A model generated the notes under the pieces. The model saw nothing but the letters and a program-made list of their open reading frames with translations. It was not told the DNA's origin and did not search any database. The position numbers and the translations under genes were made by a program. A stretch of 64,000 bases of DNA from positions 640-64,639 of the forward strand of contig VXRJ01000034.1 in NCBI GenBank assembly GCA_009838525.1. The letters are read 5' to 3'. The DNA is from Acidobacteriota bacterium. GTDB taxonomy: Bacteria; Acidobacteriota; Vicinamibacteria; Vicinamibacterales; UBA8438. Below, piece after piece: positions 40,916 through 64,000 of this stretch (positions are counted from its first letter, which is position 1; every line of letters begins with the position of its first letter).

Positions 40916-42175
40916 CTACGCGAACATCCCGAGCGTATCGAACCTGCCCCCGAGGATGTCCTCCGACCTGGAATGGCCGAGGTACCCTTCGATGAGCGAG
41001 GCGTAGACGCGCCGGAAGTCGGTCGTGTACTGCAGATTGTCTCCGTACACGAGGTCGGTCAGGCTGGGCGGCGTGCTGTACTGGCCGCCGTTCACGCCGC
41101 CGCCGAGCACGAACGACACGTTGGCGGTGCCGTGGTCGGTGCCGAGGTTGGTGTTCTCGGGCACGCGCCGGCCGAACTCGCTGTGGATGAAGACGCACAC
41201 CTCGTCCTGCTTGCCGAGGCGCTTCATTTCCTCGAAGAAGCCCCAGACCGCGTCGGAGCAGTACTGCACCTGGCGGTTGTGGGGGCTCTCCTGATTGACG
41301 TGCGTGTCGAAGAGGCTGTTGCGCAGCCGCACGTAGTAGAGCCGGGCCGGGAAGTCGTTCTCGATGAGCGCGACGACCTTGTCGAGGTCCAGCAGCCGGA
41401 GCTCCGTGTTGCGGCCTTGGTTGTAGTTCGCCCAGGCCTCGCTCACAAGGGCCGAGGCCTCGCGGGCGCTCTGGTTGACGTCGAGCAGGAACTTGTGGAT
41501 TTCGCCGCGGGCGGCCTGGCCGTTCCCCAGCTGCTCGACGTACGGGCTCTGGGGATGAAACAGATCGCGCCGGAACGCGCCCGGATCCTGGAAGACCACC
41601 GGGACGTGCTCGTGGGCCCGCACGGCGAGTGACTGCGCGGACGCGACGTTCACCAGGAAGTTGGGGCTGCCCGACGGATCGAGGGCGTCGGCGGTCCGGC
41701 CGTACCAGCCATAGGCTTCCCCGCTGTTCGGAGCGCCGGTGTGCCAGAACGAGCTGGAGGCGAAGTGGGAGAACGACGGTTGGTCGTAACCCGCCCCGTG
41801 AATGACGGCGCAGTTGCCCTCCTCCCAGAGGCGGTGCATGCCCACCATCGATTTCTGGAAGCCGAAGTGCTCGTCCACCTTGATCACGTCGGCCTCCCGG
41901 ACGCCGATCGTGGGGCGGCGCCGGTACAGCTCGTCGTCGCCGTACGGCACGAACGTGCTCAGGCCGTCGTAGCCGCCGAACCACTCGAACACCACCAGGA
42001 TCTTGCCCTCGGTGGCGGCCAGCGCCTCCGACGTGGCGCCGAACAGCGGCGGCAGGGGCCCCAGCCCGCTCCCCAGCAGGCCGAGGCCGATCCCCTTGGC
42101 GCCGATCTTGAGCGCCTGCCGGCGGGATACCCCGCTGGCGTCACACAGCTTCTTGCCGCGATTGGTCAGGGTCAT
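40916..42175 (-). CDS. Tat-exported DUF1501 protein
   Basis: 419 residues from the ATG at 42173-42175 with GAGG upstream. The N-terminus SRRQALKIGAKGIGLGLLGSG is a twin-arginine signal. The sulfatase-like DUF1501 core shows VVFEWFGGYDGLSTFVPYGDDELY, AVIHGAGYDQPSFSHFAS, VFIHSEFGRRVPEN and GTDHGTANVSFVLGGGVNGG, all standard for the family. DUF1501 proteins occur in tandem with DUF1800 proteins across Planctomycetes, Acidobacteria and marine Proteobacteria; their reaction is unknown. Downstream partner of the DUF1800 gene in the same operon, with a 24-bp gap. Confidence 0.93.
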   Translation of the reverse strand: MTLTNRGKKLCDASGVSRRQALKIGAKGIGLGLLGSGLGPLPPLFGATSEALAATEGKILVVFEWFGGYDGLSTFVPYGDDELYRRRPTIGVREADVIKVDEHFGFQKSMVGMHRLWEEGNCAVIHGAGYDQPSFSHFASSSFWHTGAPNSGEAYGWYGRTADALDPSGSPNFLVNVASAQSLAVRAHEHVPVVFQDPGAFRRDLFHPQSPYVEQLGNGQAARGEIHKFLLDVNQSAREASALVSEAWANYNQGRNTELRLLDLDKVVALIENDFPARLYYVRLRNSLFDTHVNQESPHNRQVQYCSDAVWGFFEEMKRLGKQDEVCVFIHSEFGRRVPENTNLGTDHGTANVSFVLGGGVNGGQYSTPPSLTDLVYGDNLQYTTDFRRVYASLIEGYLGHSRSEDILGGRFDTLGMFA

Positions 42176-42199
42176 GGTCGTGCACCTCTATTTCGGACG

Positions 42200-44047
42200 T
42201 CAGTCGATCTGGTACTCCGGCGTGCTCATGATGAGATGGGTCACCATACGCAGCGGGTCCTCCAGGTAGGTCCGGGCGCGCTGGAGATCCGAGGTTCCCA
42301 GCTCCTCTTCCAGAAGCTCCACCAGGCCGGTGCGCATCTCCGCCGATATCGGGACCCGCAGGAACCGCCCGAGCAGATGGTCGACCGCCTCGGTGGCGGT
42401 CGTCGCCCCCGCATCCAGCACCATCCGGCTCATGTCGAAGCGGGCCGCACCGCGCGGGGTCGGAATCAGCTTGCGGCCTGCCTCGGCCCACGCCTTGTAG
42501 CCGGAGACCCGCGTGTTGAACATCTCGTCCCGCTCCAGGGCAGACAGGTCGAACGCGGTCATCTGGTTCGGATCGCCGTCGATGGCGATGGCGGCGCCGT
42601 AGTCGAAGCCGCGCCGCAGGCGCTCGCCCACCAGCCCGTCCCCGGTCGGGGAGAGGAAGTTCGGATCCTTGAAGTCGATGATGTCCGGGAACAGGTACTC
42701 GAAGGCGACGTTGCCCCGTTCCTGCAGGAGCGCCGGCGTTATCCACGACCGGCCCTGCGCCCAGCCCGCGACCGACGGCGGATTCAGCAGGTGCTGGCCC
42801 AGGCCGATGGTGGTGCGGTTGAAGTCCGGCACGCCGGGCACGTCCGGGGCGCCAAGCTGTCTTAGCATCGCGATCACGTGCTCGACCGGCCCCTTGATAT
42901 GGGCGCCGTAACTCGCCTCGCTGTAGAAGTCGCGTGACAGGAAAATCGTCCGCAGGAGCGGCTTGAGCTCGTAATGGTGGTTGCGGAGGACGTCGCCGAG
43001 TTCGGCCTGCAGTTCCGGCGACGGGTCCTCCCGGACGAAGAAGCGGTAGATCTTGGCCGCGATGTACTCGGCCGTGATCGGCTGCTCCAGAATGATGTGG
43101 AGCACGTCCACGCCGTCGAAGTTGCCCGTGTGGCCCAGGAAGGTCTTCGGGCCCTCGTCGTGCTGGTCCTGGTTGACGACGAAGTCGAGGTTCACGAAGT
43201 TCCAGCCCGTGAACGCCCGTGCCGCCTCGCGGACATCCTGCTCGCTGTAGTTGCCCACGCCCATCGTGAACAGCTCCATCACCTCGCGGGCGAAGTTCTC
43301 GTTGGCGGCGCCCTTCACGTTCACGCCGGCGTCGAGGTAGTAGAGCATCCCCGGGTCCTGGGCAACGGCGACGGCCAGCTCGCCAAAGTTCCCGGTCGCG
43401 TGACGCTCGAATGTCTCGACCTGAAGCAGCATCTTCCGGTAGTCGCGGACCTTGTTCTGAGCGGTGGCGAAGTGCCCGTGCCAGAACAGGGCCATCTTCT
43501 CCTCGAGGGGGCGGTTGGTGTCGAGCATCCGCTCCGCCCACCAGTAGCCGACCCGGCGGGTTTCCAGCGCGCTCGCTCGCAGCCAGTAGAAGAAGCGGTC
43601 GGAGACCGGTTGCATGTGGCGGTTGACGAACTCAGGCTTCACCCGGATGCCCATGCTCTCGCCGCGCACCATGGCCAGGTCGGTCGCGGCGGGCCGGCTG
43701 GGCGGGAAGTTCATCAGCGTCTCGTCCCAAAAGCCCGAGTGCTCGAACGGCAGTAGATGGTCGTTCGGGATGTCGTCGTAATCGACGAGGGAGCGGACCG
43801 CCTCGTCCGGTGTCATGTCCGCCAGGCGCTGGACGTCCTCCGGCGTACCGCTGAAGCCCGCGCGCCCGAGCAGGTGTTCGGCGCGGTCGTAGTTCCAGTC
43901 CGCCGCGGTGATGGCGGTCAGGTCCCCCGTCCAGGAAGCGGGTCCGGGATCCCAGTCCTGCGCGCCGGCCGTCGCGGCGTGGCCGCTGACAAGAAGCGCC
44001 AGCGCGGCGGCGGCGACCACGGCGGAACGGCGGTGTCGAGTCGGCAT
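42200..44047 (-). CDS. Exported DUF1800 protein
   Basis: 615 residues from the ATG at 44045-44047, preferred to one at 44056 because GAGGAG lies at the correct distance for it. Signal peptide: AVVAAAALALLVSGHAATAGAQ. The DUF1800 signatures are present: AEHLLGRAGFSGTPEDVQRLA, RVGYWWAERMLDTNRPLEEKMALFWHGHF, NENFAREVMELFTMGVGNYSEQDVREAARAFTGW, and a C-terminal SPRTPEYQID-like end (MSTPEYQID). The family and DUF1501 are always partners; role unknown. First gene of the two-gene operon; its promoter is at 44118-44145. Confidence 0.93.
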   Translation of the reverse strand: MPTRHRRSAVVAAAALALLVSGHAATAGAQDWDPGPASWTGDLTAITAADWNYDRAEHLLGRAGFSGTPEDVQRLADMTPDEAVRSLVDYDDIPNDHLLPFEHSGFWDETLMNFPPSRPAATDLAMVRGESMGIRVKPEFVNRHMQPVSDRFFYWLRASALETRRVGYWWAERMLDTNRPLEEKMALFWHGHFATAQNKVRDYRKMLLQVETFERHATGNFGELAVAVAQDPGMLYYLDAGVNVKGAANENFAREVMELFTMGVGNYSEQDVREAARAFTGWNFVNLDFVVNQDQHDEGPKTFLGHTGNFDGVDVLHIILEQPITAEYIAAKIYRFFVREDPSPELQAELGDVLRNHHYELKPLLRTIFLSRDFYSEASYGAHIKGPVEHVIAMLRQLGAPDVPGVPDFNRTTIGLGQHLLNPPSVAGWAQGRSWITPALLQERGNVAFEYLFPDIIDFKDPNFLSPTGDGLVGERLRRGFDYGAAIAIDGDPNQMTAFDLSALERDEMFNTRVSGYKAWAEAGRKLIPTPRGAARFDMSRMVLDAGATTATEAVDHLLGRFLRVPISAEMRTGLVELLEEELGTSDLQRARTYLEDPLRMVTHLIMSTPEYQID

Positions 44048-49557: not shown

Positions 49558-50052
49558 ATGAGGACGAGAGCGAGTAGAAGAAGCCGCGCGGGGCGTGGTC
49601 CCACGGTCTTGGGGATCCTGTTGGTCATCGGCGTCATCTGGGCGGGTTGGGTGTCGGTTCCCGCGGCCGAGCCAAAAGGGCGCCCGGCCCGCGCTGCGTC
49701 TCGGGGCGCGACAGGTTGGCAGTCGCACGCCTCGGTAGCGGAAGGGGTATTCAGCGCTGCCCAGGCGTCGCGCGGCGAGCAGACGTTCCGGCAGGTCTGC
49801 GCCGCCTGTCACGACACCGGGGAGTTCTCCGGCGGGCGGTTCCGCCTGACGTGGGTCGGCCAGACCGCCGGTGACCTGTTCGACACCATCGCGACCCTCA
49901 TGCCGGAGGGTGATCCGGGAAGCCTCCGTCCCGCGGAGTACGCGGCGGTGGTGGCCTACCTCCTGCAATTGAATGGCTATCCGGCCGGGGAGACGGACTT
50001 GTCGGCCAGCATGCAGGAGCTGCGCGGTATGGAGATCGTGGAGGCGCCATGA
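49558..50052 (+). CDS. Membrane-anchored cytochrome c
   Basis: 164 residues from the ATG at 49558, preceded by GAGG (a GTG at 49486 would extend it by 24 residues). A helix (TVLGILLVIGVIWAGWVSV) anchors it to the membrane. A single heme c site CAACH (C81-H85) follows, and a Met in TLMPEG is the likely distal ligand. It is the probable electron acceptor of the flanking PQQ dehydrogenases. The stop overlaps the next start (ATGA). Confidence 0.87.
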   Translation: MRTRASRRSRAGRGPTVLGILLVIGVIWAGWVSVPAAEPKGRPARAASRGATGWQSHASVAEGVFSAAQASRGEQTFRQVCAACHDTGEFSGGRFRLTWVGQTAGDLFDTIATLMPEGDPGSLRPAEYAAVVAYLLQLNGYPAGETDLSASMQELRGMEIVEAP

Positions 50053-52133
50053 GACGGGTTGCAAGCGTCCGGAATCGCCTTGGTTTCCTCGTGGCGGTGA
50101 TGGCAGTGGCCGCGGTTGCGGCCGGCGTGGTCGCTGGCGCGCGGCTCCTGCCGGTTTCGGCCAGCGCGCAGGGAGGTGAGACTCCGGCCGGCGAGTGGCG
50201 CTACATCGGCGGCGACGCCGCGCACACGCGCTACTCCGGCCTCGATCAGATCACGGCCGACAACTTCGACGACCTCGAGGTTGCCTGGGTGTGGCGGGGC
50301 GACAATTTCGGCCCGGGCACGCTCGGGACATCGCGCTCGACCCCGATCTACGTCGACGGCGTGCTCTATACCGTTGCCGGCGAGCGCCGCAACGTGGTGG
50401 CGATAGACCCGGCCACCGGCGAGACGCTCTGGACCTACCGCGAGCCGCACACCACCCGCTTCGACCGCGGAATGCGCAACGGCTACGGAAAGGGCGTGGC
50501 CTACGCCGAGGTGGACGGCCGCGGCATCCTCTACATCATCAGTCCCGCCTTCTTCCTTCACGCCCTCGACGCGACGACCGGGCGGCCGCTGGAGAACTGG
50601 GGCAGCCCGGTGCCGCTGCCTGGCTTCCCGCAGACGGGCGTCGTCGACATGCTGCCCGACCTGATCGCCGACTGGGGACCCTGGGAGAGCTGGGACGGCG
50701 CCTACGATCCCGATTTCGGCATCCCGCGGGAGTTGGGCTACATCACCAGCTCGTCGCCGCCCATCGTCGTCAACGGCGTCGTCGTGGTGGGCAACTCGGC
50801 CGAGCAGGGCTACAACCAGACCCGCATCGAGAACGTGCCGGGCGACATTCTCGGCTACGACGCGCGGACCGGTGAACACAAGTGGAAGTTCCACGTCATC
50901 CCGCGTCCCGGCGAGTTCGGGCACGAGACCTGGGAGAACGACGCCTGGGAATGGACGGGCGACGTCTCGTCCTGGGCTCCCATTTCCGCCGACCCGGAAC
51001 GGGGGCTCGTCTACGTGCCGACCAATCCGCCCACCATCGACTTCTACGGCGGCTTCCGTCCTGGCGCCGGGCTGTTCGGGACGAGCGTCATCGCCCTCGA
51101 CGTCGAGACCGGCCAGCGGGCCTGGCACTTCCAGACGGTGCACCACGACATCTGGAACTTCGACAATCCGACCGCGCCGGTGGCCCTCGACGTCACCGTG
51201 GATGGCCGGCCTCGGGAGATCGTGGTCCAGACCACGAAACAGGGCTGGGCGTTCACGTTCGACCGGGTGACGGGCGAGCCGATCTGGCCGATCGAGGAGC
51301 GGCCGGTACCGCAGTCCGAGGTGCCGGGGGAGCAGCTTTCGCCCACCCAGCCGATGCCGACCCGTCCGGCCGCCTACGAGATGCAGGGCCTCACCGAGGA
51401 TGACCTGATCGACTTCACGCCGGAGCTGCGGGCGGAGGCGCTCGAGATCGTCCGGAACTACCGGATCGGGCCCATCTTCAATCCGCCGATCGAGCGGGGC
51501 CATCCGTCGGGCCTGCGTTCGTTCGTCAGTTGCCCGAGCGGGGCGTCGAACATCTTCGGGCCGACGTCGGCGGACCCCGAGACCGGCATCCTCTACGTCT
51601 CGACGCAACGCGGCTGCCGCTCCGAGAACATCGTGCCGGGGGAACTAATCGACGCGCCGGCCGACATCAAGACCACCGGCCGAACCATCGCCGACTTCGC
51701 GGTCGTCAACCGCGGCGACTTCCGTGGGCCGCAGGGGCTGCCCATCTTCAAGCCGCCCTACAGCCGCATCGTCGCCATCGACATGAACACCGGGGAGCAT
51801 CTCTGGGAGACGCCGAACGGCGACACGCCGGAGAACATCCGCAACCATCCGGCGCTGCGGGGCCTCGACGTGCCCAACACGGGCCGGCGATCGCACGCCG
51901 TCACGATGGTCACGAAGACGCTGCTGATCACGGCCGAGGGAACCGGCGGCACGCCCCGTCTGCACGCCATCGACAAACGGACCGGCGAGCGCCTGGGCAC
52001 GGTCGAGCTTCCCGCCTCGGGGCAGTACGGAATGATGGGCTACCTGCACGAGGGCCAGCAGTACATCGTCGTTCAGGTGGCGGGACCGGATCTTCCCGGA
52101 TCGCTCGCCGCGCTGCGCCTGCCCTTGCGCTGA
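50049..52133 (+). CDS. PQQ-dependent dehydrogenase, membrane glucose-dehydrogenase-like (paralogue 3)
   Basis: 694 residues, overlapping the cytochrome gene by four bases. The signal peptide is LGFLVAVMAVAAVAAGVVAGA. Propeller motifs such as GETLWTYREP, HKWKFHVIPRP and GQRAWHFQTVHHD are of the PQQ glucose/quinate dehydrogenase type. The catalytic-Asp region reads HHDIWNFDNP, with Asn370 in place of the first Asp of the DxD seen in the other three paralogues. Two segments, QPMPTRPAAY and FTPELRAEALEIV, are typical of this subfamily. It has no N-terminal multi-helix domain, so it is periplasmic. The last eleven codons, GPDLPGSLAALRL in outline, recur in decayed form after the stop. Confidence 0.9.
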   Translation: MRRVASVRNRLGFLVAVMAVAAVAAGVVAGARLLPVSASAQGGETPAGEWRYIGGDAAHTRYSGLDQITADNFDDLEVAWVWRGDNFGPGTLGTSRSTPIYVDGVLYTVAGERRNVVAIDPATGETLWTYREPHTTRFDRGMRNGYGKGVAYAEVDGRGILYIISPAFFLHALDATTGRPLENWGSPVPLPGFPQTGVVDMLPDLIADWGPWESWDGAYDPDFGIPRELGYITSSSPPIVVNGVVVVGNSAEQGYNQTRIENVPGDILGYDARTGEHKWKFHVIPRPGEFGHETWENDAWEWTGDVSSWAPISADPERGLVYVPTNPPTIDFYGGFRPGAGLFGTSVIALDVETGQRAWHFQTVHHDIWNFDNPTAPVALDVTVDGRPREIVVQTTKQGWAFTFDRVTGEPIWPIEERPVPQSEVPGEQLSPTQPMPTRPAAYEMQGLTEDDLIDFTPELRAEALEIVRNYRIGPIFNPPIERGHPSGLRSFVSCPSGASNIFGPTSADPETGILYVSTQRGCRSENIVPGELIDAPADIKTTGRTIADFAVVNRGDFRGPQGLPIFKPPYSRIVAIDMNTGEHLWETPNGDTPENIRNHPALRGLDVPNTGRRSHAVTMVTKTLLITAEGTGGTPRLHAIDKRTGERLGTVELPASGQYGMMGYLHEGQQYIVVQVAGPDLPGSLAALRLPLR

Positions 52134-53466: not shown

Positions 53467-53576
53467 CTTGTCCCGGCAGAGCCGCTGTTGCGCCGGCCGC
53501 CCGCATGGAGGATGATGCCCGAGTTCGGGATTAGAGAACGAAACCGGGCCCCGGCGCTCGGTTGAGGAGACGGACG

Positions 53577-55304
53577 ATGCGAGAGATGGGACGCTGCCGA
53601 GTAGTGCTGGTGTGCCTGGCCACCTTCCTGATGCTCCAGGCCGACGCGAGCGCGCAGTCGCAGGATCGGGCCTGGGAGCCGATCACCGAGGAGCGGCTGC
53701 TCAACCCGGAGGACGGGGACTGGATGAACTACCGGCGGACCTACGACGTGACGGGGTTCAGTCCGCTCGATCAGATCAACCGCGACAACGTCGGCGACCT
53801 GCGCATGGTCTGGGCCTGGTCGGTACGGGACAACAGCCGCTGGGTGCCGACGCCGATCGTGGCCAACGGGCTGATGTATGTCTCCGAGGGGAGCGGCCGC
53901 GTGATCGCCTTCGACGCGGTCTCGGGCGACGTGGCCTGGATGCACACGCGGAGCTACCCGGAGGACATAGAGAAGTCGCAGGCGCTCGGCCGGCATCGCG
54001 GCGTCTCGGTTTACGGCGACACCATCTACTGGGGGACCGCCGACGCCGCGCTGGTCGCGCTGGATGCCCTGACCGGCGAACAGCGCTGGGAGGTGAGCAC
54101 CGGTGACTACACGAGCGGCCTCGGGCACAGCCACCCCGCCTTGATCGCTGACGGAAAGGTGGTGCTGGGCTTCGCGGGGGGTGATCGGAGCGGACGCGGA
54201 GTGGTCGTGGCCCACGATGCGGAGACCGGCGAACACATCTGGACCACGTACACCGTGCCGGCTCCGGGAGAGCCGGGCTACGAGACCTGGACCGAGCGCG
54301 AGATTCCGCCGCTCGGCGGGCTGACCTGGAACACGATCAGCTACGACCCGGAGCTCCGCCTGGTTTATCTGGGCACGGGGCAGCCGACGCCGTGGGCGTC
54401 CACCCTGCGGGGACCCGGCGACGCGCTCTATACCAACTGCATCCTGGCCCTCGACCTCGACACCGGCGAGATCGAGTGGTACTTCCAGGTCGTGCCGTCC
54501 GACAACTGGGACATGGATGCGACGCACGAAAGCATGTTGGTCGATCTGGTCATCAACGGCGTCGAGCACAAGGCGCTGATCGAGACCAGCAAGATCGGTT
54601 GGGGTATCGTCCTCGACCGCGAGACCGGCCGCTTCATCAACGCGTTCCGGACCGGCTACGACAACATCATCACCGGTTGGACCGACACCGGCAGCCCGAT
54701 CTTCAATCCGGAGCAGATACCGACCCTGGACGACGTCGATTCGGACCGGATATTCGAGGTGTGCCCCCACTTCCATGGCGCGCGGAACCTGAATTCTCCG
54801 AGTTTCAGCCCCGAGACTGGCCTCTATTACACCGGCATCAACAACAGTTGCATGGACGTGACGTTTGTCTCGGAGGAGTACCAACCGGGGCGCATCTATC
54901 GGGGCATGGGGAGCCGAGTCAAGATGGTTCCCGGCTACGACTACATCGGGGAGTTCGTCGCGTTCAATCCGGTCTCCGGTGAGCGGGCGTGGGAGTACCG
55001 GCCGGAAAGCGGAGCGCCGATGACCGCGTCGGCGCTTGCGACCGCCGGCGGCATCGTCTTCGGCGGTACCGCGGACCGCCGGTTCTTCGCACTCGACGCC
55101 GACAACGGCGACCTGCTCTGGGAAACGCGCCTCAACGGCGACATCTCCGGCGCGCCGGTCACCTTCGAGATCAACGGCCGCCAGTACCTTGCAGTCGGCG
55201 CCGGCGGCCGGATCGGTCAGACTACTTCCTACGCCCGGCTCACCGACATCACGCTCCCGCAGGGGAGCGGCGTCGTCTGGGTGTTCGCGCTGCCGGAGGA
55301 GTAG
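53577..55304 (+). CDS. PQQ-dependent dehydrogenase, quinoprotein (paralogue 4)
   Basis: 575 residues from the ATG at 53577, preceded by GAGGAGA; a TTG at 53562 is rejected. Signal peptide VVLVCLATFLMLQADASAQ. The propeller W-motifs are GDVAWMH, EQRWEVS, GEHIWTT, GEIEWYFQ and GDLLWET. The active-site region reads SDNWDMDAT, with Asp312 and Asp314 in DxD spacing. More distant from the 30 kb and 46 kb genes. It is followed 55 bp downstream on the same strand by a TonB-dependent receptor gene, suggesting uptake of the substrate or of PQQ/metal. Confidence 0.9.
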   Translation: MREMGRCRVVLVCLATFLMLQADASAQSQDRAWEPITEERLLNPEDGDWMNYRRTYDVTGFSPLDQINRDNVGDLRMVWAWSVRDNSRWVPTPIVANGLMYVSEGSGRVIAFDAVSGDVAWMHTRSYPEDIEKSQALGRHRGVSVYGDTIYWGTADAALVALDALTGEQRWEVSTGDYTSGLGHSHPALIADGKVVLGFAGGDRSGRGVVVAHDAETGEHIWTTYTVPAPGEPGYETWTEREIPPLGGLTWNTISYDPELRLVYLGTGQPTPWASTLRGPGDALYTNCILALDLDTGEIEWYFQVVPSDNWDMDATHESMLVDLVINGVEHKALIETSKIGWGIVLDRETGRFINAFRTGYDNIITGWTDTGSPIFNPEQIPTLDDVDSDRIFEVCPHFHGARNLNSPSFSPETGLYYTGINNSCMDVTFVSEEYQPGRIYRGMGSRVKMVPGYDYIGEFVAFNPVSGERAWEYRPESGAPMTASALATAGGIVFGGTADRRFFALDADNGDLLWETRLNGDISGAPVTFEINGRQYLAVGAGGRIGQTTSYARLTDITLPQGSGVVWVFALPEE

Positions 55305-55358: not shown

Positions 55359-58316
55359 TTGCGAAGTCTCCAATATCGTACGCGCGGTCGTCGTCGGCAG
55401 GCATGTGGGGTTGCCACGGTCACAGTTTCCCTCATCTTCGCCGTTGCCACGACGGGTGCCGCTCAGTCCCTCGCATCGGTCCAGGGGTTCGTGAGCGACG
55501 AAACCGGGGCCTTCCTTCCGGGGGTGACGGTCGAACTCGTGGACCTCGAGCGAGGCCAGCGCCGCATGGCGGTGACGAACCGGCAAGGCCTCTTCGTCCT
55601 CCGCGCGATTCCCGGCGGGCGGTACGACCTCGTCGCAACCCTGGAGGGATTCCGCACGACTCGCCGCGAAAATATCCGCCTCCTCGTCGGGCAGAGCCTC
55701 GACGTGGATCTGAGGCTCGGCCTCGCCTCGGTCGAGGAGACCGTCCTGGTCGTCGGCGAGACGCCGCTGCTTGAAGTGGGGCGCGCGGGCGTGGCCGGGT
55801 ACGTGAACGAGGAAGAGATCGCCAATCTGCCGATCTCGGGCCGTGACTTCGTGCGGTTCGCCCTCCTGATGCCGACGGTGCAGGTGGACGCGCGCGGCAG
55901 GCTGTCGTTCAGCGGCCAGCGCGCAGTGAACTCGGGATTCACCATCGACGGCGCCGACGCGAAGAGCGCGTTCTTCGGCTTCGGGCGGGGCGGGCTGGCC
56001 AGGGAGGGCGGCGGCGCTCTGGTCGCGCAGGAATCCGTCCAGGAGTTCCAGGTGGTCACGAGCGGGTACTCGGCCGAAGCCGGCCGCTCGGGCGGCGGCG
56101 CCATGAACGTGATCACCAAGAGCGGCACCAACGACTTGGCTGGTTCCGTCGTTCTCTTCGGGCGCGACGATCAACTGGCGGCCCGGCTGCCGCGTTCGCC
56201 GCTCGACGCCGCCCGCGGCGTGCCCGCGGACGACTTGCGCTACGAGGTGGACGAGTTCCGCCGCTACAACTGGGGGGCCTCCCTCGGCGGGCCGATCCGG
56301 CGCGACCGCACCCACTTCTTCGTCTCTTACGATCAGACCGCCCAGAACCAGCCCTTCCTCAGGCACATCCGTGGACGCGGGCAGTACGACGCGGTCCTCG
56401 GGAGCTTCCCGGAGCTTCTGGCCGGTTACGTGCCGAACGACGACGGGGCCGCCGCCGCCGACCCCCACAACGGACGAACCGCGAGCGGACGATTCGTGCG
56501 GGAGACCGACAACCTGATTCTGTTCGGCAAGCTCAATCACCGGGCGACAGACCGGCACTCGCTCGCGTTGCGCTACAACTTCACCCGCTATTCGCGCGTG
56601 TCGGACTTCGTCGGCGAGGAATCACGGCGGTTCGTGAAGAGCCACTCCACGGTGGGCGAGCTCGTCTCGATGGTCGGACGGAGCGGCGTCAACGAGCTCC
56701 GCGCCCAGTTCGCCTACGACGACTTCGACCGTCGGTCGCACCTGCCCGACAGCGCGCTTCAGGCGCACTTCAGCATCTTCTATCCGTCGTTCGGATCCTT
56801 CGGCAAACCCTGGTGGCTGCCGGTCTCCAACGACGAGCACAAGCTCGAGATCCAGGAGCGGTTCTCCTATGTATCGGGGAACCACGAGCTGCGCGCGGGC
56901 TTCTCCCTGAGCCACGACGCCCTGAGCGAGTTCTTCGCGGGGAACGCCGACGGAAACTACGACTTCGACACGCTTCAGGACTTCGCTGCCGGCACGCCCG
57001 CGCGCGCCATCATCTTCTTCGGGATCATGGAGAACCCCAACTTCGAGGTGTCCCAGCAGATTCTCGGCGCCTACGTCCAGGACTCCTGGAGCCCGAGCCG
57101 GAGCCTCACGCTGCAGATCGGCGCCCGTTGGGACGGCACCCTGAACCCCGGCGGGATCGAGCACGTGCTGCCCGCGGGGCGACGCATCCCCGATGATCTC
57201 GACAACTTCTCACCCCGCGCCGGCGTGGTCTGGTCGCCCGACTCGCGGAGCGTCGTCCGGGCCTCGGCGGGGGTCTTTTACGCTCGCACGCCGACGCTGC
57301 TCTTTTCGACCGCCCACAGCGACACCGGCATCTATCCGCGCTACGGAAACGCGATCGTGTCGCCGGGAGACACGGGCTTCGTGCCCCTGGGTTCGCCGAT
57401 CGCCAACGACAGCCCGCCGGCCGGCCTGATTCCCGCGCTGAGCCACTTCGATCCCGGCTTCGAGGATCCGCGCACGATCCGCGTCAACGTCGGGTACGAG
57501 CGCGAGCTCGGCGGCAACCTCGCCGCCTCGTTCGATCTGCTGCATGCGCGGGGCGACTCGCTCGCCTCGAACTTCGATGCGAACGTCCCGGCGCCGACAC
57601 GCGACCCGTTCGGGCGGCCGGTATACGCCGGCAAGCGCATCAACCCGGCCTACGGGCCCATCCTGGTGCGCGCCTCACCGGCCCGCTCCGACTACCTGGC
57701 GCTCACCGCCGGCCTGCGTCGGCGTTTCAGCGACGGGGTCCAGTTCCAGGCTCACTACACGTGGTCGCGCGACCGCTCGAACGACGACAACGAACGCTCG
57801 GGGAGCCTGACGCTCACCGACCCCACGGATCCTGACTACGACTGGGGGCTCTCGATCCGCGACATCCCCCACCGCCTTGTGGCGAGCGGCATCTTCGCTC
57901 TGCCCTTCGACGTCACCGCGAGCGCGATTCTGACGGCCCAGTCGGGCGCTCCCTTTACCGCGCTCGATCCGGCGGTGGGCTTCCACAACCACCCCGGCTT
58001 CGCCATCGGTCCGCATGGGGCCCAGACCCGGGCGGTGGTCGACGGCGAGCTCGCGCCCGTGAACGGCGAGCGGAACGCGTCGTGGACCAACCTCGATCTG
58101 CGGCTGACCCGGCACTTTCAACTGGCCGGAGCGCGGGTGGAGGGGCTTTTCGAGGTTTTCAACCTCCTGAACACCGGCGCCTTCCGGGTCGGGCACGCCG
58201 ACCAGCAAGAGGTCTTCCAGAACGACGGCGTGACCCCGAACCCGGAGTTCGGCCTTGCCGGCGTGCTCGTCGGCGCTCCGCGCCAGGCGCAGCTCGGCCT
58301 GCGCATCGCGTTCTGA
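55359..58316 (+). CDS. TonB-dependent receptor with carboxypeptidase-regulatory domain (Oar-like)
   Basis: 985 residues from a TTG at 55359 (no better start is visible; there is no clear ribosome binding site). Signal peptide VATVTVSLIFAVATTGAAQ. A CarboxypepD_reg-like Ig domain follows (about residues 38-120, GFVSDETGAFLPGVTVELV), then a plug domain (VVTSGYSAEAGRSGGGAMNVITKSGTN) and a long beta-barrel with alternating aromatic segments (SLTLQIGARWDG, NVGYERELGGNLAASFDLLHARG) ending GLRIAF with a C-terminal Phe. It belongs to the Oar-like group common in Acidobacteria and Bacteroidetes. The substrate is unknown; neighbours suggest a sugar/alcohol or a metal complex. Confidence 0.93.
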   Translation: MRSLQYRTRGRRRQACGVATVTVSLIFAVATTGAAQSLASVQGFVSDETGAFLPGVTVELVDLERGQRRMAVTNRQGLFVLRAIPGGRYDLVATLEGFRTTRRENIRLLVGQSLDVDLRLGLASVEETVLVVGETPLLEVGRAGVAGYVNEEEIANLPISGRDFVRFALLMPTVQVDARGRLSFSGQRAVNSGFTIDGADAKSAFFGFGRGGLAREGGGALVAQESVQEFQVVTSGYSAEAGRSGGGAMNVITKSGTNDLAGSVVLFGRDDQLAARLPRSPLDAARGVPADDLRYEVDEFRRYNWGASLGGPIRRDRTHFFVSYDQTAQNQPFLRHIRGRGQYDAVLGSFPELLAGYVPNDDGAAAADPHNGRTASGRFVRETDNLILFGKLNHRATDRHSLALRYNFTRYSRVSDFVGEESRRFVKSHSTVGELVSMVGRSGVNELRAQFAYDDFDRRSHLPDSALQAHFSIFYPSFGSFGKPWWLPVSNDEHKLEIQERFSYVSGNHELRAGFSLSHDALSEFFAGNADGNYDFDTLQDFAAGTPARAIIFFGIMENPNFEVSQQILGAYVQDSWSPSRSLTLQIGARWDGTLNPGGIEHVLPAGRRIPDDLDNFSPRAGVVWSPDSRSVVRASAGVFYARTPTLLFSTAHSDTGIYPRYGNAIVSPGDTGFVPLGSPIANDSPPAGLIPALSHFDPGFEDPRTIRVNVGYERELGGNLAASFDLLHARGDSLASNFDANVPAPTRDPFGRPVYAGKRINPAYGPILVRASPARSDYLALTAGLRRRFSDGVQFQAHYTWSRDRSNDDNERSGSLTLTDPTDPDYDWGLSIRDIPHRLVASGIFALPFDVTASAILTAQSGAPFTALDPAVGFHNHPGFAIGPHGAQTRAVVDGELAPVNGERNASWTNLDLRLTRHFQLAGARVEGLFEVFNLLNTGAFRVGHADQQEVFQNDGVTPNPEFGLAGVLVGAPRQAQLGLRIAF

Positions 58317-58466: not shown

Positions 58467-59519
58467 ATGAAGGGCACCAGACAAATCCGCGAACTATCCG
58501 AGGGGTTGAGAACCGCGTTCGACGGCTCGAACGTCGCGCACCGAGTGCAGGACTTCGAGGGATGGACCGACCGGGTGTCCGACGAGGATTCCGCCGGGGG
58601 GTACGACCACACGCGGACCGTCGGGGAGTACTACGACCTTTGTACCGAGTTCATGGTCTGGGGTTGGGGAGAATCCCTGCACTTCGCGCCGCTGTTTCCT
58701 CGCGAAAGCCTGGAGGACTCCAAGATCCGGCACCAGAAATCCATGATCTCGAAGCTCGAACTGCGTCCGGGCATGACGGTCGTGGATGTCGGCTGTGGGA
58801 TCGGCGGTCCGATGCGCCGGGTTGCCCGCGAGTCCGGTGTCCGTGTTGTCGGGATCAACCTCAGTGAAGTCCAGTGCAACACCGCCCGGCGGTTGAATGC
58901 CGCCGCGGGGCTCGCTGACCAGACCGACTGCCTCCGGTGCAGTTTCATGGACATGAGCGCGATCGCGGATCAGACCTTCGACCGGGGCTACGCGATCGAG
59001 TCAACCTGCCATGCGCCCGACAAGGCTGGCGCGTTCGCCGAAATCTACCGGGTCCTGAAGCCCGGCGCCCTCTTCTGGGGTCAGGAAATGTGCATGACCG
59101 ACCTGTACGACCCTGGGCGCGACCTGCACCGCGCCATCAAGCGGGAGCTCAGGCACGGCATCGCACTCAAGGACATTGCGACGTGCGGGGAGGTGAACCG
59201 GGCGCTCGAAACCGCGGGATTCGAAGTCGTGGAGGGTGAAGACCTCGCCGCCCGGCAGCGCGGCCCGGGCACATCGTGGTATCAGCCCATGGACACCCGG
59301 CGCGGGCTGCCGGGCGGCGCCTTCCGCCGGATTCCGATAGGCCGCAAGGCGACGCGGTGGGGAATCAGGATGGCCGAGTTCTTCGGTGTGTTCCCGAAGG
59401 GCTCGGCGGAGGTGGTCGCGCTGCTGGATCGGACCGCAAATGCCTATGTCGCGGGGGGCAGGGCAGGGATCTTCACGCCGCTCTACTGTTTCCTGGCGCG
59501 CCGGCCGCTGTCGGGTTAG
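58467..59519 (+). CDS. Sterol C-24 methyltransferase-like (ERG6/SMT) protein
   Basis: 350 residues, about the length of eukaryotic SMTs. All four SMT signature regions are recognisable: region I VWGWGESLHFAP (64-75; eukaryotes have YEYGWG.SFHFA), the SAM-binding motif VDVGCGIGGPMRRVAR (106-121), region III YAIESTCHAP (175-184) and region IV CMTDLYDPGRDLHRAIKREL. The C-terminal Sterol_MT_C-like part (about 275-350) ends GIFTPLYCFLARRPL, very like plant and fungal SMTs. SMTs add a methyl group to C-24 of the sterol side chain. No signal peptide. It sits alone on this strand, convergent with the RND and P450 genes. Bacterial SMTs are known only from a few uncultured lineages. Confidence 0.85.
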   Translation: MKGTRQIRELSEGLRTAFDGSNVAHRVQDFEGWTDRVSDEDSAGGYDHTRTVGEYYDLCTEFMVWGWGESLHFAPLFPRESLEDSKIRHQKSMISKLELRPGMTVVDVGCGIGGPMRRVARESGVRVVGINLSEVQCNTARRLNAAAGLADQTDCLRCSFMDMSAIADQTFDRGYAIESTCHAPDKAGAFAEIYRVLKPGALFWGQEMCMTDLYDPGRDLHRAIKRELRHGIALKDIATCGEVNRALETAGFEVVEGEDLAARQRGPGTSWYQPMDTRRGLPGGAFRRIPIGRKATRWGIRMAEFFGVFPKGSAEVVALLDRTANAYVAGGRAGIFTPLYCFLARRPLSG

Positions 59520-59555: not shown

Positions 59556-62500
59556 TCAAGTGGAGGCGTTGCGGGCCAGTTCTTGCCGCGTCGAGGTCAG
59601 GCGCAGGTGCAGCGAGGAAAGCGCGGGTACCAGGAACATGACGATCACCGTTGTGAAGAGGATGCCGCAGCCGATCGAGGCGGAGAAGGGCACAAAGAAC
59701 TGCGCCTGAATCGCGTCCTCGAGAATCAGGGGGGTGAAGCCGAGGAAGGTCGTCAGGGAAGTCAGCATGATCGGGCGAAAGCGTCCCTTCGCACCCTCGA
59801 TGATCGCGGTTCGTCCCGGAATGTCCTCCCTGAGCTTCTGATCGGTGAAATCGATCATCACCAGGGAATCGTTCACCACCACGCCGGCGAGGCCGAATAT
59901 CCCGACAAAGGACTCCGCGCTCAGCGCCACCCCCAGGGCCCAGTGACCCAGGATCACGCCGATGAACCCAAACGGGATGATGGCCATGATGATGAACGGT
60001 TTGGTATAGGAGCGCAGCGGAATGGCCAGCAGCGCGAAGATCATGAGCAACGCGATCGCGAATCCGCGATAGAGACCGCCCAATGAGTCGAGTTGCTGCT
60101 GCTGTTCACCTCCGAAGGTGTACGTGAGTTCCGGGTTTTCGTCGATGAGTTCCGCCAGGATGGTGTTCTCCAGAATGTCATTGGCGGTCGCCGCGGAAAC
60201 CACACTGGCATCCACATCGGCGGTCACCGTGACAATGCGCTGGCCATCCTGGCGCCGGATGGCCGGCGGCGATGTGCCCGAACTCAGCGAAGCCACGCGG
60301 CTTACCGGCACGTCGGCGCCGGTTGGGGTACGGAGCCAATATCTCTCGACGTCGGTAATCGAGTTGCGCTGCTCCTCGGGTAGCCGCACGTAAACCCGAA
60401 CTTCTTCACGTCCTCGCTGCACCCGGACGGCTTCCGCGCCGAAGAAAGCGGCTCGCGTCTGCCAGGCAAGATCGTCAAGCGTGAGGCCGAGGGTGCGCGC
60501 ATCGGGAAGCAATCCCACCTGAACTTCCGGGATACCGGGAGTGTGATCAGAGCGTATGTCGAAGACGCCTCCGACTCCGCCGAGGTCCGCGACGGCGGAA
60601 TTCGCCATCGCGGTCAGGCGTTCCGGATCCGGGTGGGACAGCGCGGCCTCGACGGGGTTCCCCAGTGTGTAGATCTCGCTGATGAAGGTGACCGCGCGCA
60701 CCTGCGGCAGGACACCCACCTCCTCGCGCCATGCCTGCACGACTTCTCCCGAAGTGATGCGCCGCTGCTGCGCGCTCAGGAGCTTGAACTCGATGGTGGC
60801 GATGTTGGTTTCCGGGTTCAGGGTGGGCGAGGGGTTGAGGCCCCCGGTTTCGATCCGCGAACGCTGACCGACGACGACCGTAACGCCGGACAGCAGAGGA
60901 GGCGCATCCGCGGGCCGGCCTTCGGAAAGCCGCTCCACGGCCCGGCGACCGGCTGATTCGAGTTCCTGCGCCACGGCGTACGTCTGCGGCGCGGTCGTTC
61001 CGTCCGGCATTTCGAGAGTGGCGATTGCGAAATCGCCTTCGACCTCGGTCGCAAAGGTGGACCGGACGATACCGGCCGGAATGAGGGAAACGCTCACGAC
61101 GAGCAGCGCAACGGCCGCCGAGACCGTCACCCCGGGCCAGTCCGTCGCGAACTGGATTCCCCGGTCCAGGGGTCCCTGCACAAAACGGTGCAACAGGGAA
61201 TCGACACGACTCCGGATCCGGTTAACGAATCGTTCCCCGCGTGTAGTGGGCGCCCAATCCGGACCGTGCACATGATGGGAGAGGTGGTTGGGCAGCACCA
61301 GCAGCGATTCGGCCAGCGAGATCAACAGCGTGGCAATGACGACGATCGGCAGTGCCTTCCAGACCTCTCCGAAGCCCGCGGGTATGAAGAGCAGCGGCAG
61401 GAACGCCACGACGGTCGTCAGCACCGCGAAGATCAGCGGCACCTTGATGCGTCGCGCACCCCGGATCGCTGCAACAACCCCCGGCGTGCCGCGCATTCGT
61501 TCCAGGTGAATGTGCTCGGACACGACGATCGCATCGTCCACGACGATTCCGATGGCAAGCACGAAAGCGAACAGCGACACCTCATGGAGCGGGATGTCGA
61601 ACATCATCATGGCGGCCAGGGCGCCGATCGCGGAAACGCCGAGACCGACGGCGACCCAAAACGCCAGCCGGATTTCGAGAAAAAGGCCGAGCGCGAGCAA
61701 GACCAGCAACAGCCCCAAGGCTCCGTTCTTGAGGAGAAGGAGGCCGCGCTCCACGAAGATCGAAGAGTCGTCGCTCCAGATGTTGATGCCCACCCCGTCG
61801 GGAAGCGCGGGGGTCAACTCGTTCGCAACGTAGTCACGAACAGCGCTCGCCACGTCCATCACCCTCTCGCCGTCGGCTCGCGAGACTTCGACGAACACGG
61901 CGGGGCGCCCCTCGTGCCGGACGAGCAAGCCGGAATCCTCGAAGCCGTCGCGCACCTCGGCGATGTCACCCAGGCGCACCACCGTGCCGTCTTCGCGGCC
62001 GAGGATGACGATGTTCTCGAAATCCTGCTGATCGTAGCTCTGGCCGAGCGTCCGAACCCGCACCTCGGACCGCTCGGTATTGATGCTGCCCGCGGACAGG
62101 TCCAGGGAACCGCGGCGAATCGTACTGGCGACATCGGTCAGCGTGAGCCCCAGGGCTCGCAGCCGCTGCAGCGGCACCTCGATCGAGATTTCGTAGTTGC
62201 GAACCCCGCTGGTCTCGACCTGGGACACGTCCGGGAGCGAAGCGAGATCGTCCTCGATACGGTAGGCGAGCTCTTTCAGCGAGCGCTCGGGAACGTCGCC
62301 GTAGAGGACGAGACGCATCATGCTCTGGGCGTTGGTCATTTCCCGGATTTGGGGCCGTTCGGCTGCGCCCGGGAACGTCTGAATGCGCCCGACCGCCGAC
62401 TCGACTTCATCCCTCTTCGCGCCCATGTCCGTCCCCGAATCGAATTCGACCCTGACGGACGCCATTCCCGGGGCCGCTACGGAGCGGACCGTCTTCACGT

Positions 62501-62765
62501 CGGCCAGTCCCCGGACCTCATCCTCGATCTTGACGACGATGGCCTCCTCCACCTCTTCGGGGGTTGCTCCGGGGAGCGCCACGGAGATTTCGAACTGGTT
62601 GAAGGGCACCGTGGGCCACGCTTCCTGCTCGAGGCCGGTCAGCGACACGAGGCCCACCGCGAGGATGCCGAACATCAACAGATTGGACGCGACGCCGTTG
62701 CTCGCCATGTAGGCGATCGGTCCACCGGGTTCGGCGTGGTCGCCTCGGTTGGGGCTCATTGGCAA
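59556..62765 (-). CDS. RND efflux permease (AcrB/HAE1 family)
   Basis: 1069 residues with a start ATG at 62765 (another at 62759). Twelve helices in two repeats; the first helix region ASNGVASNLLMFGILAVGLVSL is followed by the periplasmic pore domain (EEAIVVKIEDEVRGL). The proton-relay Asp pair is present in helix 4 (IGIVVDDAIVVSEH), and the second repeat has GVVVNDSLVMIDF at the position where AcrB carries Lys, so this belongs to the Lys-lacking NDSLV subgroup. The family exports lipids, drugs or metals together with a periplasmic adaptor and an outer-membrane channel, which are not in this window. It is 61 bp downstream of the P450 gene on the same strand, so both are probably co-transcribed. 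Confidence 0.93.
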   Translation of the reverse strand: MPMSPNRGDHAEPGGPIAYMASNGVASNLLMFGILAVGLVSLTGLEQEAWPTVPFNQFEISVALPGATPEEVEEAIVVKIEDEVRGLADVKTVRSVAAPGMASVRVEFDSGTDMGAKRDEVESAVGRIQTFPGAAERPQIREMTNAQSMMRLVLYGDVPERSLKELAYRIEDDLASLPDVSQVETSGVRNYEISIEVPLQRLRALGLTLTDVASTIRRGSLDLSAGSINTERSEVRVRTLGQSYDQQDFENIVILGREDGTVVRLGDIAEVRDGFEDSGLLVRHEGRPAVFVEVSRADGERVMDVASAVRDYVANELTPALPDGVGINIWSDDSSIFVERGLLLLKNGALGLLLVLLALGLFLEIRLAFWVAVGLGVSAIGALAAMMMFDIPLHEVSLFAFVLAIGIVVDDAIVVSEHIHLERMRGTPGVVAAIRGARRIKVPLIFAVLTTVVAFLPLLFIPAGFGEVWKALPIVVIATLLISLAESLLVLPNHLSHHVHGPDWAPTTRGERFVNRIRSRVDSLLHRFVQGPLDRGIQFATDWPGVTVSAAVALLVVSVSLIPAGIVRSTFATEVEGDFAIATLEMPDGTTAPQTYAVAQELESAGRRAVERLSEGRPADAPPLLSGVTVVVGQRSRIETGGLNPSPTLNPETNIATIEFKLLSAQQRRITSGEVVQAWREEVGVLPQVRAVTFISEIYTLGNPVEAALSHPDPERLTAMANSAVADLGGVGGVFDIRSDHTPGIPEVQVGLLPDARTLGLTLDDLAWQTRAAFFGAEAVRVQRGREEVRVYVRLPEEQRNSITDVERYWLRTPTGADVPVSRVASLSSGTSPPAIRRQDGQRIVTVTADVDASVVSAATANDILENTILAELIDENPELTYTFGGEQQQQLDSLGGLYRGFAIALLMIFALLAIPLRSYTKPFIIMAIIPFGFIGVILGHWALGVALSAESFVGIFGLAGVVVNDSLVMIDFTDQKLREDIPGRTAIIEGAKGRFRPIMLTSLTTFLGFTPLILEDAIQAQFFVPFSASIGCGILFTTVIVMFLVPALSSLHLRLTSTRQELARNAST

Positions 62766-62826: not shown

Positions 62827-64000
62827 TCACACGGGATTCGGAATCTGGGCGACGCGGAACTTCAGTTTCTTGTTGGGGGCCAGGGTCGGGAACGGGTTGA
62901 TTCCCATGCTGTAATTGGCGGGCACCACTTCGAGCTGCAGGTGATGGGCGATGAGCAGGACATTCACAGCCATCTGCAGTTCCACCCACCGATGGCCGAG
63001 GCACATGTGCGTACCCAGGCCGTAGGGAGCGTAAGCGCCCGGCTGCAAGTGTTCGGCTCGCTCTGGCAGGTACCGATCTATGTCGAACTTCGACGGTTCC
63101 GGGTACAGATCGTCGTCGTAGTGCGGCGCCGTCTGGCAAATCAACGCCATCGTCTTCGTCGGGATCTCGTAGCCGCTGACGATGCACTCGTTCATGACCG
63201 TTCTCAACTGCCAGGGAATCACGGGGTACATACGCGAGGACTCCATGCAGAGACGAACCGTGACGTCGATGCTGTCGTGATTGAAATCGCCGTCCTCCGG
63301 TTCACGACCGTTCCCGAAGAGCGACTCGGCTTCGCTCCGAACTCTTGCATACACGTCCGGGTGACGAGCCATGTTGTATATGGTGAAGGCCAATCCACTG
63401 CCGAGATAGATGCTGGCAACCATGGCCGCCACGAACGGAAACGTGAGGTCGGTTTCAGGAAGAAACTGTGGATCGCTCTTGTGGAGTTCGAGGAGCGCGT
63501 CCGCTATGTCCCGCGGCTTTCCCTTGCGTTGGGCCGGCGTGTGCGATTCCAGAATCGCCTCCTGGAGCCTATTGACATGCTTCCCGTAGCGTTTCATCCT
63601 CGGCGTGGACAGCATGAAATCCGGCAAAGCGCCCTGGATCCGCGTCACCAGCGCGCGGTGTTCAAAAGCCAACAGTTCGTCAACATAGTGGCTGCAATCC
63701 ACTCCCATCGTGAGATGGGAGATCTGGCTGCTGATGTGGTTTTGAAAGTCCTCGGTGCCGCGGAAGACGTCCCCTTCCTTCCACCGACTGAGTGATTTCC
63801 GGCAGTTGTCTATCAGCTCCGGCAACCGCGACGCCAACGTGGCGCGGGAATACGCACTCTGGAGCGATTTGCGCATTCGATAGTGTTCTGCGCCATCCAT
63901 CCCCGGCATGCTCCGGGAGGCGCCGAATGCCCTCTCCAGCCCTTCGATGTAGTCCTTGGAACGGAAGTAGAACCGCCCGTGCCTGTTAATCCAATGATTG
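62827..64000 (-). CDS. Cytochrome P450, partial (5' end beyond window), atypical I-helix
   Basis: The frame is open to the right window edge; about 391 residues are present and the N-terminus is missing. Heme-binding loop PYGLGTHMCLGHRW (F/Y-x-x-G-x-x-x-C-x-G), K-helix ExxR as ESSRMYP, and the PEPSKFDIDRYLPER meander are all present. In the I-helix, where most P450s read AG-x-D/E-T, the sequence is VASIYLGSGLAFTIYNM, with no acidic residue and no Thr. That resembles P450s that do not activate oxygen in the usual way (isomerases, peroxygenases). By eye the region around the C-terminal half recalls CYP51-type sterol enzymes, but the CYP51 I-helix motif is absent. It precedes the RND gene and faces the sterol methyltransferase. 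Confidence 0.88.
   Translation of the reverse strand, partial: NHWINRHGRFYFRSKDYIEGLERAFGASRSMPGMDGAEHYRMRKSLQSAYSRATLASRLPELIDNCRKSLSRWKEGDVFRGTEDFQNHISSQISHLTMGVDCSHYVDELLAFEHRALVTRIQGALPDFMLSTPRMKRYGKHVNRLQEAILESHTPAQRKGKPRDIADALLELHKSDPQFLPETDLTFPFVAAMVASIYLGSGLAFTIYNMARHPDVYARVRSEAESLFGNGREPEDGDFNHDSIDVTVRLCMESSRMYPVIPWQLRTVMNECIVSGYEIPTKTMALICQTAPHYDDDLYPEPSKFDIDRYLPERAEHLQPGAYAPYGLGTHMCLGHRWVELQMAVNVLLIAHHLQLEVVPANYSMGINPFPTLAPNKKLKFRVAQIPNPV

Follow-up and report, generated by a model that had tools for sequence, protein, structure and literature searches.

A sterol C-24 methyltransferase gene in an acidobacterial genome lacking squalene epoxidase and oxidosqualene cyclase, and the putative sterol-tailoring genes that accompany it

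The SMT gene and its neighbours

The stretch of DNA analysed here (the window, 64,000 nucleotides) lies on a 300-kb contig (C34) of a 4.29-Mb Acidobacteriota genome that is 96.9% complete and 0.32% contaminated. Towards its end it carries a gene of the sterol C-24 methyltransferase (SMT/ERG6) family, hereafter SMT, in the following setting:

50049-52133, upstream of SMT: PQQ-type alcohol/glucose dehydrogenase-like gene (Pfam)
53562-55304, upstream of SMT: second PQQ-type alcohol/glucose dehydrogenase-like gene (by resemblance)
55359-58316, after the PQQ genes: large outer-membrane protein (OMP_b-brl/CarboxypepD_reg, TonB-like)
58467-59519, plus strand: SMT, 350 aa (Pfam, motifs and relatives)
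59556-62765, minus strand: RND (AcrB-type) permease, 1069 aa (PF00873, 1.4e-154)
62827-64000, minus strand: C-terminal part of a GPP34-cytochrome P450 fusion, continuing past the window to C34:65487
C34:68517-69875 (L002:8518-9876), beyond the window: flavin amine-oxidase-like protein

Also encoded near SMT on C34 are TolC-type and HlyD-type proteins and a Rieske oxygenase that carries KshA_C. The SMT frame is open throughout, with ATG first and a stop at its end, while the opposite strand is broken by stops. Its GC content is 66% (GC3 83%), and its codon-position pattern matches that of the bacterial neighbours. The bacterial context proposed in the earlier note is thus borne out by the adjoining PQQ dehydrogenase and OMP_b-brl/CarboxypepD_reg genes, the neighbour-like GC, the length of the contig and the low contamination.

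In Pfam searches, SMT matches Sterol_MT_C (PF08498, 3.6e-16, 59 bits against a cut-off of 21.7) over residues 286-347, and also Methyltransf_11 (7e-17) and CMAS (1.7e-18); it is the sole Sterol_MT_C protein in the genome. The four signature regions of the family can be located from the sequence and its alignment with Erg6: region I is EYYDLCTEFMVWGWGESLHF (residues 54-73), the SAM-binding region II (VDVGCGIGGP) is VVDVGCGIGGPMRRVA (residues 105-120), region III is YAIESTCHAPDKAGAFAEIYRVLKPG (residues 175-200) and region IV is FWGQEMCMTDLYD (residues 203-215). The C-terminus reads FTPLYCFLARRP. The sterol-specific regions I, III and IV (YxxWGWGxSxHF, YAIExTCHAP and MTD) are all found in the alignment. 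Against an approximate sequence of yeast Erg6, SMT scores 219 bits, with 36.9% identity across 331 residues. Like yeast ERG6 and plant SMT1, SMT has all four signature regions and the Sterol_MT_C domain, and it is about 37% identical to the approximate Erg6; unlike them, it is bacterial and stands apart from a de novo pathway. At the position of region I Tyr-81 of Erg6, it has Trp, and its relatives have Phe or Tyr.

The assignment is independent of the approximate Erg6 sequence, and at sequence level membership of the SMT family is close to certain. The four regions and the C-terminal sterol domain verify this part of the earlier note, and the gamma-tocopherol methyltransferase that it had named as an alternative is excluded by Sterol_MT_C together with the Erg6-like motifs. 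A tocopherol or ubiquinone methyltransferase is likewise rejected, the NCBIfam methyltransferase models scoring far under their cut-offs.

Genes that accompany SMT across phyla

Searching 84,980 species genomes turns up at least 129 SMT relatives. The best 80 of these are 62-85% identical to SMT and apparently all belong to sponge MAGs; by their labels, they span at least nine phyla (Acidobacteriota, Gemmatimonadota, Chloroflexota, Pseudomonadota, Actinomycetota, Nitrospirota, Nitrospinota, Dadabacteria and Deinococcota). The relatives that carry the accompanying genes appear to be symbionts of marine sponges, judged from isolate codes and known sponge projects. The MPM/MPN bins are presumably the Aplysina aerophoba set, and the codes RHO, COS, IRC and APA match sponge projects (species list in PMC8163846).

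The gene set proposed here as a sterol-tailoring kit would consist of SMT, a KshA/SdmA-like Rieske protein, the GPP34-P450 fusion, the flavin oxidase-like protein, an ERG4/ERG24-type reductase and a lipid-type transporter, its enzymes being annotated purely by homology. Their presence beside SMT is no accident. Synteny was counted over the 56 loci in which SMT is flanked by 9 kb or more in each direction. Of these, 41 encode the Rieske protein and 40 the GPP34-P450; the flavin protein occurs at 23 loci, an MMPL transporter similar to sterol-sensing-domain proteins at 18, and the RND permease at 12. Genome-wide, 50 of 51 SMT genomes have a GPP34-P450 homologue, and 38 of 51 have the ERG4/ERG24 sterol reductase, which occurs in none of 14 control genomes. 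Among 162 genomes of the order, SMT, a close Rieske homologue and a full-length reductase (>100 bits) are confined to the same two genomes; the same pair would recur by chance once in 13,041 per further gene, a figure that ignores kinship, both genomes belonging to one family. The second of these genomes has its Rieske and reductase genes side by side (C108:40726-41709 and 41771-42826).

The fusion protein is 673 aa in full and combines cytochrome P450 (PF00067, 3e-36) with GPP34 (PF05719, 1.1e-34), the Golgi phosphoprotein 3 domain, in one open reading frame. Our literature search found no description of such a fusion. Among PDB sequences, CYP51 is the best match to the P450 half, and cholesterol 24-hydroxylase comes lower in the ranking. 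In an alignment of the kit P450s, ASVYLGD or a similar sequence stands where the I-helix normally has its acid/alcohol pair (the outlier L088 excepted), so their chemistry may be unusual. An AlphaFold model (pLDDT 84) matches CYP184, CYP3A, CYP51, BM3 and CYP46 about equally, and the structure is therefore not diagnostic of the reaction. The fusion is also not exclusive to the kit: family members that have no SMT carry distant homologues (33-38%), so the fusion by itself is not diagnostic.

The Rieske oxygenase (PF00355 and PF19298, KshA_C) has both the CxH/CxxH and the mononuclear iron D..H....H motifs, with conserved CPHLG/CPFHG, ENsVDxxHLxYxH and DVxQDxxIW. Its best solved relatives are KshA 3-ketosteroid 9alpha-hydroxylases, and among NCBIfam models it matches SdmA weakly. 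The nearest solved relative of the flavin protein is LkcE. The reductase (ERG4/ERG24 family, 379 aa) lies on another contig of the acidobacterial genome, C32. It aligns over its full length with its best solved relative, the bacterial delta14-sterol reductase 4quv (120 bits), of the family that includes human TM7SF2/LBR; the double bond that the C32 reductase would reduce may be 14, 7 or 24(28). The transporter near SMT varies, being RND/TolC/HlyD in the acidobacterium and the MMPL protein in Chloroflexota, and an RND permease also adjoins SMT in Acidobacteriota, Gemmatimonadota and some Gammaproteobacteria loci.

In the SMT tree, in which the approximate Erg6 is the only eukaryotic sequence, one starred clade holds 81 members with at least nine phyla interleaved. 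It lies beside second-copy bacterial SMTs, and its stem from the Erg6-like SMTs measures 1.48 changes per column. Monophyly of the Gemmatimonadota SMTs is rejected (p-AU 1.4e-6), and with it vertical descent for the one phylum tested. Across phyla, the flavin protein is nearly invariant (75-88% identical, above the identity of the adjoining SMT), and the C32 reductase shares 84% identity with its Dadabacteria copy. Transfer between phyla is supported by these comparisons. Most of the genomes are MAGs, and some absences and cross-phylum placements may be binning errors; bin contamination can mimic part of the transfer signal, but not the repeated linkage of several genes in varied orders.

Some loci carry a second SMT, more Erg6-like, within 20 kb of the first (L027, L056, L063, L064, L068, L089 and L122). 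It is 42-45% identical to the approximate Erg6 (six loci measured) and usually lies on the opposite strand to the first SMT. In the Dadabacteria chromosome, the second SMT (L122:1450-2451) is followed immediately by the genes for the GPP34-P450 and the flavin protein.

Squalene epoxidase and oxidosqualene cyclase in SMT genomes

The earlier note looked to the rest of the genome for sterol-synthesis genes, and here its expectation fails: both committed enzymes, squalene epoxidase (SQE) and oxidosqualene cyclase (OSC), are absent. No SQE (PF08491) match is found in the 96.9%-complete acidobacterial genome. No OSC is found in it either, the sole squalene/oxidosqualene-cyclase-like protein being resident on contig C16:

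C16:174072-176135 (L009:6072-8135): divergent class II terpene cyclase of the squalene-cyclase superfamily, 687 aa

This protein has the SHC-type DADDT motif and scores 57 bits to the bacterial OSC model TIGR03463, under the NCBIfam cut-offs; there is no obvious hopanoid cluster in its neighbourhood. As an SHC-like enzyme with the DADDT motif, it was rejected as the bacterium's own OSC.

The SQE and OSC searches were repeated over 51 SMT-bearing genomes. OSC (723-742 bits) and SQE (77-99 bits) occur together in exactly seven, where the two are encoded in one open frame of 1116-1223 aa. The same searches find no such pair in the other 44; because both enzymes were found in the seven, the searches are sensitive and absence is the rule. 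A few of these 44 genomes (G186, G192 and G202), which have no OSC, give borderline PF08491 matches of 20-23 bits, which are read as UbiH-like flavoproteins because the model also matches in E. coli. A triterpene cyclase above 100 bits is lacking in 30 of the 51 genomes. The kit is also present without SQE and OSC in five records titled as chromosomes, from Dadabacteria (L039/G180), Dehalococcoidia (L047/G183, L070/G198 and L079/G204) and Nitrospirales (L058/G192), which makes missing contigs an unlikely cause of the absence there.

The one-frame SQE-OSC loci are L094-L100 and L109-L115 (genomes G194, G195, G197, G199, G208, G209 and G210), and in several of them an ERG24-type reductase and a roughly 500-aa P450 are encoded nearby. 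The fusion is not a novelty, as fused SMO/OSC homologues are already mentioned in an earlier study (PMC10070321).

SMT might nevertheless serve an ordinary pathway of bacterial sterol synthesis as its side-chain enzyme, with SQE and OSC either in the missing 3% of the genome or too divergent to be recognized. The one-frame SQE-OSC of seven other SMT genomes, the widespread sterol clusters of Ircinia symbionts (PMC9531527) and the sub-cut-off TIGR03463 similarity of the C16 cyclase would fit such a pathway. Against it stand the absence of SQE and OSC both here and in 44 of 51 SMT genomes, chromosome-labelled records included, the DADDT motif of the C16 cyclase, and the many genomes devoid of any high-scoring triterpene cyclase. 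The Ircinia type of cluster, with clustered LSS, CYP51 and ERG24, does not occur in the acidobacterial genome, which has no LSS, has its reductase on another contig and has the GPP34 fusion as its P450. De novo sterol synthesis by the acidobacterium is thus unlikely. Since SQE and OSC are absent, any sterol that is methylated would have to be acquired.

Probable modification of acquired sterols

We favour the reading that the gene encodes a true SMT acting on acquired sterols, as part of a horizontally exchanged tailoring kit in a bacterium with no sterol synthesis of its own (probability roughly two in three). The broader proposal, that the kit is mobile among at least nine phyla of sponge symbionts and lets bacteria that make no sterols alkylate and remodel those of the host, we hold to be slightly better than an even bet. 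The sterols remodelled by kit bacteria are probably made by others, most likely the sponge.

SMTs transfer a methyl group from SAM to the 24(25) double bond of a sterol side chain, giving a 24-methylene or 24-methyl sterol. From the gene set, we infer the following order of reactions. The RND or MMPL transporter would take up sterols from the sponge or from other symbionts, and SMT would then alkylate the side chain with SAM at the 24(25) double bond, after which the ERG4/ERG24-family reductase could saturate the new bond. The Rieske enzyme may oxidize the sterol nucleus, and the GPP34 domain may tether the P450 to the membrane, so that the kit as a whole would remodel both side chain and nucleus. 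The products might be used in the bacterial membrane, returned to the host or serve as a signal. Cholesterol, the commonest animal sterol, lacks the 24(25) double bond that SMT needs, which counts against this reading.

The presence of other sterol-type enzymes beside SMT supports a sterol as the presumed substrate. Non-sterol isoprenoids are methylated by some enzymes of the SMT family, such as the triterpene methyltransferases of Botryococcus, and squalene, a botryococcene-type compound, a polyprenoid or a hopanoid could be the acceptor here too. A genome without a sterol pathway and the long stem that separates the clade from Erg6-like SMTs would both suit such a substrate, which we nonetheless consider rather unlikely: SMT retains all four sterol-SMT regions and Sterol_MT_C, a sterol reductase and enzymes of the KshA/SdmA-like and CYP51-like kinds are found together with it, and no cyclase is consistently present to supply hopanoids. 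The kinship of the Rieske protein to KshA raises another alternative, in which the Rieske, P450 and flavin enzymes break down host sterols along the lines of 9,10-seco steroid catabolism, with SMT in a secondary role. This is very unlikely, as side-chain methylation is anabolic, a sterol reductase accompanies SMT, and no further catabolic genes recur in the neighbourhoods of SMT.

The preferred reading, a kit that modifies acquired sterols, can be set beside two recent studies. Of the 24 bacterial SMTs that Brown et al. (2023) assayed in vitro, 20 alkylated sterols; C-24 methylation, ethylation and isopropylation were observed, and three SMTs produced the 24-isopropyl side chain (PMC10070321). 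One of these enzymes, from Chlamydiae, was active though its genome has no other sterol genes (PMC10070321), and it is the nearest precedent for the modification of acquired sterols. Their SMTs belong to the same family and come from similar sources, metagenomes of Aplysina aerophoba symbionts among them. The emphasis of that work was on OSC/SdmAB clusters, 13 of the 24 SMTs having an OSC in the cluster or MAG (PMC10070321), whereas the acidobacterial genome and most SMT relatives analysed here have none. Kelly et al. (2022) described OSC-centred clusters (CSGs, with ERG24, CYP51 and LSS) in Ircinia symbionts of ten phyla, with evidence of horizontal transfer and with SMT1/ERG6 enriched in the symbiont MAGs (PMC9531527). 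Sponge symbionts, many phyla, horizontal transfer and SMT are common to both systems, but the Ircinia clusters are built around lanosterol synthase, which is missing from the present kit in 44 of 51 genomes, and the oxidative enzymes of the kit are different ones. The kit of GPP34-P450, Rieske, flavin protein and transporter is not mentioned in the main text of PMC10070321, and we found no OSC-free kit of this kind in the text of PMC10070321 or PMC9531527.

The earlier note had presented C-24 alkylation by a bacterium as a surprise. Its family assignment holds, but the surprise does not, since bacterial ownership of SMTs was established in 2022-2023 through the Ircinia symbiont MAGs (PMC9531527) and in vitro activity (PMC10070321); nor do SQE and OSC, the committed enzymes of sterol synthesis, occur elsewhere in the genome. 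The SMT gene is a new member of a known family, and what is new is the kit in genomes that do not make sterols.

Steranes alkylated at C-24, above all 24-isopropylcholestane, are taken as the earliest sign of animal life. If our reading is true, part of the unusual sterols of demosponges, including the precursors of C-24 alkylated biomarkers, would be made by host and bacteria together. If most SMTs of sponge symbionts reside in non-making genomes with the kit, OSC genes cannot be used to separate host from symbiont sterol chemistry. The kit would also supply candidate genes for steps in sponges that have no assigned enzymes, such as C-26 methylation, whose enzymes are described as undiscovered (PMC10070321). 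The source of sponge-type sterols would in this way become a testable question of host-symbiont co-metabolism.
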